A DNA stretch of 64,000 nt from Actinomycetota bacterium (GTDB lineage: Bacteria > Actinomycetota > Actinomycetes > S36-B12 > CAIYMF01): the NCBI GenBank assembly GCA_026393115.1, contig JAPLAU010000033.1, forward strand, positions 62,001 through 126,000, given 5' to 3'. The translations under genes were made by a program, and so were the position numbers. The notes beneath the pieces were generated by a model. It saw only the letters and a list, made by a program, of their open reading frames with translations. It was not told where the DNA came from and made no database searches. Of the stretch, positions 50,771-52,629 are shown piece by piece. Numbering within the stretch: position 1 is the first letter of the stretch; each line of letters begins with the position of its first letter.

Positions 50771-50796
50771 AACCGTTGCGCTGACGACTCCGAACA
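50771..50796 (+). repeat. 26-bp direct repeat, left copy (putative att-like site)
   Basis: Identical to 51781-51806, which is the 3' coding end of uppP. Begins AACCGTTGCG and ends CTCCGAACA; flanking bases differ immediately on both sides. Placed just after the corA stop. The two copies bound 984 bp of accessory DNA. Confidence 0.85.
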
Positions 50797-50824
50797 GCAT
50801 TTCCACACACTATGTGGCCTAGGT

Positions 50825-50852
50825 CACATGCACCCTAGATCGCACATGCACC
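50825..50852 (+). repeat. Short direct repeat CACATGCACC, two copies
   Basis: CACATGCACC at 50825-50834 and again at 50843-50852, 18 bp apart, inside the presumed insertion and downstream of the precursor peptide gene. Function not known. Confidence 0.5.
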
Positions 50853-50888
50853 AACGCTTCAGCAGAAGTACCGGGGGTAGGCACTCAT

Positions 50889-51182
50889 TCACGGTCCTGT
50901 GGGATACAGCATGCGATCGGCGCCGCCAGTACAACCGGCGTTGGGGTCACCGCCGCTGACGAGTTCGAGGTAGTCCAGCGGCAGTTCGTCGTTGACGAAC
51001 CCAAGGCTGAGTGACCCGTCGGCTGCCTGGCTGGCCACGATGTTCCAGTCATCGGGCACTGTCATGCAGGTTTCGGCTGAGATCGTTGCGGCGGGATCGG
51101 CAATGAGTCGTGCGCGCAGCCCGTCGTCCCTGTTGGCTCGTGCGATGAGTGCGTCGACCGCGGTGGGAAGGTCGTTCGCCAT
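50889..51182 (-). CDS. Orphan RiPP-like precursor with NHLP-type leader
   Basis: Peptide of 97 residues with the layout of nitrile-hydratase-like leader peptides (NHLP). The leader has ALIARANRDDGLRARLIADP, then VPDDWNIV and ELPLDYLELVSGG, ending in Gly77-Gly78, the usual cut site for peptidase-containing exporters. The remaining 19 residues (DPNAGCTGG to the end) would be the core, with one Cys, two Thr and one Tyr. The ATG has AGGAG 5 nt away. No modifying enzyme or NHLM exporter lies in the window. It is enclosed by 26-bp direct repeats with a decayed recombinase. A non-RiPP NHLP-like protein is the alternative. Confidence 0.6.
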   Translation of the reverse strand: MANDLPTAVDALIARANRDDGLRARLIADPAATISAETCMTVPDDWNIVASQAADGSLSLGFVNDELPLDYLELVSGGDPNAGCTGGADRMLYPTGP

Positions 51183-51531
51183 GGGGGCTCCTCGTGCTTG
51201 GCAGGAATACTCACAGCCCAATTCCGACGACTGTCACGAGCCGGCCTGAATAACAATTCTATTTACAGTATTGCAGGTTGGTGCCGATTACATCAGGTGA
51301 TGGCCAGCTCGCGACCGAGTGAAACTCCTATTGACTACGGGGAAAGTCCGGCACAGTCAACGATCTACCCGCACCCGCCGGCGGGGCCTAAGCAGTGCGA
51401 ACTTAACAACCCCAGCGTTCTCGGCACCGCACAAACCCACGATGCCGGACACCGACGATAGTCGGAGTGTGACGAGGTGTTGCACGGATCCCCCTAGACA
51501 CTCTTTGTCCTGTCGAGGGACCCGGCAACTC
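51183..51531. other. Non-coding stretch inside the insertion
   Basis: Between the precursor peptide and the recombinase relic no reading frame of recognisable type is seen on either strand. Part may be eroded downstream sequence of the recombinase: traces of similarity appear to stop near 51532. Confidence 0.6.
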
Positions 51532-51739
51532 TCACGAGCCTGAGCCGGACACGGTCAAGTCGGCGATGGTCTCAACTACGTCCCATTCCTTTTGCAGCTG
51601 CGTACGCGCGTCAGGTCGCCTCTTGACGTTCTGGCGACGTGCTCGGATCGGATTCGCCACCGTGGCTTGACAGTCGCGTGTAGATCAGAACCCGCCTCGC
51701 TGTGCTGGCTTCGGCTTGTGTGCGGTGGCCTTTACCCAT
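51532..51739 (-). pseudogene. Serine site-specific recombinase, N-terminal remnant
   Basis: From the ATG at 51739 (ribosome site AGGAG, 6 nt away) the frame reads RRVLIYTRLSSHGGES and SPERQEAT, the catalytic start of serine integrases/resolvases, with the nucleophile Ser in YTRLS. A TGA at 51611-51613 sits where the family usually has Cys, then RAYAAAKG continues; a one-base shift is needed to read WDVVETIADLTVSGSGS, again family-like, before another stop at 51532. So one nonsense change, one frameshift, and loss of the rest. It starts 42 bp from the right 26-bp repeat. Confidence 0.8.
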
Positions 51740-51771
51740 GGCGGGCTCCTCTGGTGGGTGGAGCCTGCGCA

Positions 51772-52629
51772 CTATTGTGGAACCGTTGCGCTGACGACTC
51801 CGAACATCAACAAGATGACGAGCAGGAGCCCCAGTGCGATTCGGTAGATGACGAACGGCAAGAACGTGTTGCTGATCAAGTAGCGCAGCAACCACGCAAT
51901 GACCAAGTACCCCACAACGAATGCGATGGCGGTGGCCAACAAGGTCGGACCCCACGCTGCGGTTGTGTCGCTTCCGATGTTGAGCGCTTCGAACAGGCCA
52001 CTCGCGAGAACCGCTGGAATGGCGAGCAGGAATGAGTACCGTGCGGCGCTTTCACGCGTGTAGCCCAGCGCGAGACCGGTACTGATGGTCGCGCCCGAAC
52101 GAGACACCCCGGGAATAAGCGCCAGGGCTTGACCTAAGCCGTAGAGGATTCCGTCACGTGCGTTGAGATCATCAACTTTCTTGGTGCGCCTTCCGAGTGC
52201 GTCGCAAACGCCCAGAATGATGCCGAAGATGATCAGGTTGAACGCAACGAGCCACAAGTTTCGAGCGACTGTCTCAATCGAGTGCCGAAAGAGGAAGCCA
52301 AGGATCAAGATGGGAAGTGAACCGATAATCACGTACCAGCCCATGCGCGCATCGATCGACGACCGGGCTGACTGATCGCGCAACGAGTGGAGCCACGCCT
52401 TCGCAATGCGCACGATGTCGTGTCGAAAGTAGATGATGACCGCGAGTTCCGTTCCGATCTGAGTGACGGCGGTAAACGCAGCACCTGGATCACCCCAGCC
52501 GGTGAGTCGCGACAAAATCAACAGGTGTGCCGATGACGAGATCGGGAGAAACTCCGTCAGCCCTTGAACGATTCCAAGGATGATGGCCTCAAGCCACGAC
52601 ACGCTGCCAACCACAACCGAAAGCGTCAC
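51772..52629 (-). CDS. uppP: Undecaprenyl-diphosphate phosphatase
   Basis: Membrane enzyme that recycles undecaprenyl pyrophosphate for cell-wall synthesis (BacA type), 285 residues with about eight helices. Signature 1 is GLTEFLPISSSAHL and signature 2 PGVSRSGATIS. Its last nine codons contain the right copy of the 26-bp repeat, so the gene end is probably the attachment target, kept intact. ATG overlaps the LLM gene stop by 4 nt. Confidence 0.95.
   Translation of the reverse strand: MTLSVVVGSVSWLEAIILGIVQGLTEFLPISSSAHLLILSRLTGWGDPGAAFTAVTQIGTELAVIIYFRHDIVRIAKAWLHSLRDQSARSSIDARMGWYVIIGSLPILILGFLFRHSIETVARNLWLVAFNLIIFGIILGVCDALGRRTKKVDDLNARDGILYGLGQALALIPGVSRSGATISTGLALGYTRESAARYSFLLAIPAVLASGLFEALNIGSDTTAAWGPTLLATAIAFVVGYLVIAWLLRYLISNTFLPFVIYRIALGLLLVILLMFGVVSATVPQ
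51781..51806 (+). repeat. 26-bp direct repeat, right copy (putative att-like site)
   Basis: Same 26 bases as 50771-50796, within the 3' end of uppP. Start-to-start distance is 1010 bp. Confidence 0.85.

Follow-up and report, generated by a model that had tools for sequence, protein, structure and literature searches.

In selidamide biosynthesis a tandem GNAT protein attaches an acyl group to a side chain in a precursor of the NHLP or Nif11 type, nostolysamide and phaeornamide being examples, and a lanthionine synthetase is sometimes absent from the loci (PMC13060382). Judged by gene layout, the selidamides are the closest precedent for the genes analysed here, for which we do not claim membership of that class. 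As in the selidamides, an NHLP-type precursor goes together with a GNAT-fold gene, usually with an ABC exporter and not always with a lanthionine synthetase; the precursor lies beside the GNAT gene in a sister copy and in most relatives, but not in the orphan copy found in the window (the whole 64,000-nucleotide stretch of actinomycetotal DNA that was analysed, from a genome designated G000). Selidamides are acylated on Lys or on Arg-derived Orn, whereas the core encoded in the window has no Lys and a single Arg, all cores in this family carry Cys, and the GNAT-fold partner is unmatched by Pfam and NCBIfam and is without the Q/R-x-x-G-x-G/A loop.

With the NHLP (proteusin) precursors, represented by the model TIGR03793 and the structures 8tb1 and 9cjx, the window precursor shares a predicted leader fold, an end-to-end profile alignment, a Gly-Gly junction and a short hypervariable core; it differs from them in scoring far below the curated cut-off and in having no enzyme or exporter gene beside it in the window. 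The same genome encodes, on contig C27, a gene set that resembles NHLP-type export systems in its C39-peptidase ABC protein and in the adjacent membrane-fusion and second ABC genes, but that departs from them in falling below curated cut-offs and in being unlinked to the precursors of the window family in G000.

A divergent proteusin-type leader with a short, variable core

By its sequence, the window gene is a proteusin-type peptide precursor with a nitrile-hydratase-like leader, belonging to a divergent subfamily. The 97-residue product described in an earlier sequence-only reading of this DNA was confirmed, with ELVSGG at residues 73-78 followed by the 19-residue core DPNAGCTGGADRMLYPTGP, which includes C84, T85, Y93 and T95 (Table 1). 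That reading had also assigned an NHLP-type leader and proposed an HMM search, in which residues 11-78 aligned with positions 8-77 of the 77-position leader model TIGR03793 at an E-value of 2e-4 and 21.1 bits; the assignment holds through this end-to-end alignment, although the score falls far short of the curated 50.9-bit threshold, so that the protein is a divergent relative and, by that rule, not a member. PF14407 gave a weak match at residues 9-37. A structure predicted from the window protein and nine relatives begins with three helices, continues through a hairpin to a fourth helix and ends in a disordered tail (mean pLDDT 64, and below 50 in the core). When the model was searched against approximately 350,000 PDB chains, the best match was 8tb1 (Z 6.0 over 73 residues, 4.1 A) and the second was 9cjx (Z 5.5 over 66 residues, 3.1 A); these are the two solved proteusin precursors (NMR), matched with modest E-values and Z-scores, and on realignment of the matches nitrile hydratase and thiocyanate hydrolase ranked next. 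At these modest scores the window precursor is predicted to have the nitrile-hydratase-like leader fold. A chance open reading frame is ruled out by the TIGR03793 match, a 77%-identical paralogue, relatives in other species and the proteusin-like predicted fold.

Strong relatives of the leader turned up in 10 genomes when 166 from the order were searched, and a protein search returned relatives from MAGs labelled Candidatus Nanopelagicales, among others; in our literature search no paper mentioned Nanopelagicales together with RiPP. Across 12 aligned precursors conservation stops at the Gly-Gly, and the tails of 5-21 residues differ from one another, in line with the sequence-only reading. That reading would have been undone by a long conserved domain after the Gly-Gly; homologues show short, differing tails instead, and a folded domain at this position is ruled out by their length and by a pLDDT below 50. 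Each of the 14 cores read (5 to 21 residues) contains at least one Cys, which accounts for 19 of their 182 residues compared with 0.7% in the GNAT proteins; several of these cores come from close relatives, so that a naive probability overstates the enrichment. The cores otherwise vary widely and are mostly without Lys. One precursor leader, at L040:2370-2603 (-), is missing the central part that separates the last helix from the preceding ones and has a five-Cys core, APCDQLPWCPTCQQWGCSGCF.

The sister precursor in G000, at C5:36995-37237, is 77% identical to the window precursor over residues 1-84 and has the core SGCARP. A third, distant NHLP leader in this genome, at C16:2409-2624 (L001:1501-1716), has the core HSGNFGTPM and scores 38 bits to TIGR03793; its neighbours include no clear partner gene. 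In G026, L033:3246-9962 holds another NHLP-type system; it has an exporter of its own, and in two short ORFs the conserved part ends in SGG.

An operon fragment in an insertion scar

The window gene sits within an insertion at the corA/uppP junction, and the direct repeats that bound it are 97% identical. Joining the flanks of 50771-51780 gives the junction of the sister species G001 with no internal gap, the empty site being preserved there, and the description of the locus as a small insertion scar is thereby substantiated (1010 bp, 29-bp direct repeat). From the tail of a hydrogenase-like gene through the Gly-Gly (50949-51354), the insert shares 84-85% identity with the loci at C5 and in G001; homology to the C5 operon breaks in the core and returns for a further 40 bp or so, as far as the start of the GNAT gene. 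As read from these alignments, the window copy derives from a precursor-GNAT operon, of which it is a fragment cut off where the GNAT gene would begin. We do not favour a direct copy of today's C5 gene, because the window copy shares its residue with the relatives at 7 of the 11 informative positions and C5 does not.

The resolvase N-terminal domain PF00239 was detected in the recombinase remnant only with two frames joined (E 5.9e-5, 23.6 bits against a cut-off of 23.3), and a relative lies within a 926-aa open frame in G003. A serine-recombinase element probably brought the operon fragment to the corA/uppP site and would later have shrunk to the present scar. The suggestion of a mobile, stand-alone precursor was not borne out: the copy is, on the alignments, an operon fragment, the adjacent recombinase is a frameshifted remnant and there is no sign that the gene now moves itself.

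Table 1. Features of the precursor gene and the surrounding insertion, in window coordinates
Feature	Position	Strand	Basis or remark
1010-bp insertion counting one repeat copy; missing in sister species G001	50771..51780	.	junction comparison
Left copy of 29-bp direct repeat, end of uppP	50771..50799	.	repeat alignment
Renewed homology to the C5 operon past the core (about 40 bp), as far as the C5 GNAT start	50858..50896	(-)	0/2000 shuffles reach the score
Precursor CDS	50889..51182	(-)	97 aa + stop
Core, residues 79-97, DPNAGCTGGADRMLYPTGP	50892..50948	(-)	alignment of tails; predicted disordered
Leader, residues 1-78, NHLP/proteusin-type, Gly-Gly end	50949..51182	(-)	profile and predicted fold
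Upstream region conserved with C5 and G001 precursor loci	51183..51290	(-)	DNA alignment
3'-end remnant of the complex I/hydrogenase-like gene preceding the sister precursor; frameshifted	51291..51354	(-)	boundary approximate
40 bp with 86% identity to the 3' end of a G001 aldo/keto reductase-like gene; possibly chance or an old fragment	51359..51398	(+)	
Frameshifted N-terminal remnant of a large serine recombinase	51535..51703	(-)	PF00239 and G003 relative
Right copy of 29-bp direct repeat, within the present uppP 3' end	51781..51809	.	repeat alignment

A GNAT-fold partner of the precursor family

A protein of approximately 235 aa adjoins the C5 precursor and nearly all of its relatives and, besides the exporter, is the product of the only gene that recurs with precursors in the loci examined. 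The gene lies directly 3' of the precursor on the same strand at C5 and in G001 and G063, is divergent in most other loci, and is present in G000 as a single copy outside the window. Precursor and partner are each found in 10 of the 166 genomes, nine of which are common to both (Fisher 5e-13, not corrected for relatedness); the exceptions are G148, which is 70% complete, and G044, whose sole open frame for the partner is 108 aa long. Elsewhere in a 396-genome phylum sample the search yielded no relative of the family.

Neither Pfam nor NCBIfam matched the 235-aa proteins, and a profile search of PDB sequences with the family returned nothing useful. The predicted structure (mean pLDDT 71, mostly 80-95 over residues 91-200) matched known structures with Foldseek E-values down to 2.1e-6, the top rows being GNATs only, and with VIA Z-scores up to 10.9; MshD, VipF and other tandem GNATs were among the best structural matches, and the model assigns the partner a GNAT fold. 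The Q/R-x-x-G-x-G/A acyl-CoA loop was absent from the partner in 8 of 8 sequences inspected, which makes the use of acyl-CoA doubtful.

The precursor-GNAT cassette at L024:9201-10700 (G000:C5) is 98-100% identical to that of L028 (G001), against about 88% for the upstream DNA, a contrast that suggests recent horizontal exchange of the cassette between the species. Directly before the sister precursor lies a complex I/hydrogenase-4-like gene set (L024:10346-16949, G000:C5), the 497-aa subunit of which has ERISGDTA in place of the usual [NiFe]-site Cys-x-x-Cys; the set may be a non-hydrogenase relative.

An unlinked exporter and other enzymes

The best NHLP-type exporter match of G000 lies outside the window at C27, where the membrane-fusion, C39-peptidase ABC and second ABC genes stand side by side. 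The C39-peptidase ABC protein matched TIGR03796 over the full model at 775.1 bits, short of the curated cut-off of 853.3 bits, and the C27 exporter proteins are below the curated cut-offs of the NHLP-type export models (TIGR03794/03796/03797). Counterparts of this exporter adjoin a precursor and/or GNAT gene in L037, L038, L041, L042 and L068, their two ABC proteins being approximately 55-65% identical, and within the window's own taxonomic family a counterpart is found only in G000, G001 and G009, of which G000 and G001 have precursors. G063 has the precursor and the GNAT gene, and a close exporter is absent. From the linkage of exporter, precursor and GNAT gene in relatives and their co-distribution within the family, we infer that the scattered G000 genes belong together. 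In the RiPP locus of L040 a family 3 solute-binding protein gene (PF00497; L040:8926-9723, +) directly follows the exporter genes.

The sequence-only reading had noted that the window holds no modifying enzyme or exporter for the precursor and had offered maturation by enzymes elsewhere as one alternative; both statements agree with the present results, which place the likely partner genes elsewhere in the genome, the GNAT-fold gene at C5 and the exporter at C27. Neither a LanC-like enzyme (PF05147) nor a YcaO enzyme (PF02624) was matched in G000, the assembly of which is approximately 95% complete, and lanthionine or azole chemistry was rejected on this ground.

A proposed split pathway and its alternatives

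The window gene and its C5 sister are probably the two precursors of a peptide pathway whose genes are scattered. We regard as roughly even the chance that the window gene is specifically an orphan, the second precursor to feed a split NHLP-GNAT RiPP pathway, and is matured in trans. In such a pathway the GNAT-fold protein would recognise the leader and then acylate the core or transfer another group, and the C39 domain of the exporter would cut after Gly78 and export the 19-mer; the enzyme at C5 and the exporter at C27 would act on the window precursor in trans.

The window copy could instead be a decaying duplicate, an operon fragment in a dead mobile element that is open by chance and disused, which we consider possible but rather unlikely. 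The truncation of the operon and the frameshifts in the adjacent recombinase point towards decay, as do a dN/dS of 0.86 between the window copy and C5 (compared with 0.16 between C5 and G001, each from few sites) and the lack of a promoter-like site in a scan for promoters and terminators, which returned neither. The frame is nevertheless intact through 97 codons, the difference from the C5 core (net 13 codons) is in frame, the leader keeps 23 of 26 family-invariant residues where C5 keeps 22, and the family residue is retained at the 7 of 11 informative differences noted above, all of which argue against disuse. A doubtful, though credible, explanation of another kind makes the GNAT-fold partner an immunity enzyme or a regulator, with the core exported either as made or after modification by an unlinked enzyme: self-resistance GNATs are known (PMC13060382), the divergent orientation of the partner gene in most loci is consistent with such a role, and so are highly variable cores that mostly have no Lys, whereas the recurrence of the partner alone, exporter aside, with precursors and its place directly 3' of the precursor in C5, G001 and G063 speak against it.

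It is very improbable that the product is a small nitrile-hydratase-like folded protein with a role of its own and an unimportant tail; the leader is predicted to be compact and nitrile hydratase-like, but conservation ends at the Gly-Gly, the short, differing tails all contain Cys, and NHLP-type exporters adjoin several relatives. The split NHLP-GNAT pathway can also be extended to a RiPP class whose GNAT-fold enzyme has no acyl-CoA loop of the usual kind and would transfer a group from another donor (for example, aminoacyl-tRNA or an acyl carrier) to short Cys-bearing cores, and in which orphan operon fragments would yield extra precursors with new cores; we consider this extension a long shot.

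Cluster mining expects a precursor beside its enzyme and would miss a pathway with its exporter, enzyme and extra precursor spread over three places. The 235-aa GNAT-fold family, unmatched as it is in Pfam and NCBIfam, provides a concrete candidate enzyme, and the window locus illustrates a possible route by which a precursor repertoire may grow, through an operon fragment with a changed core that ends up at a new site.
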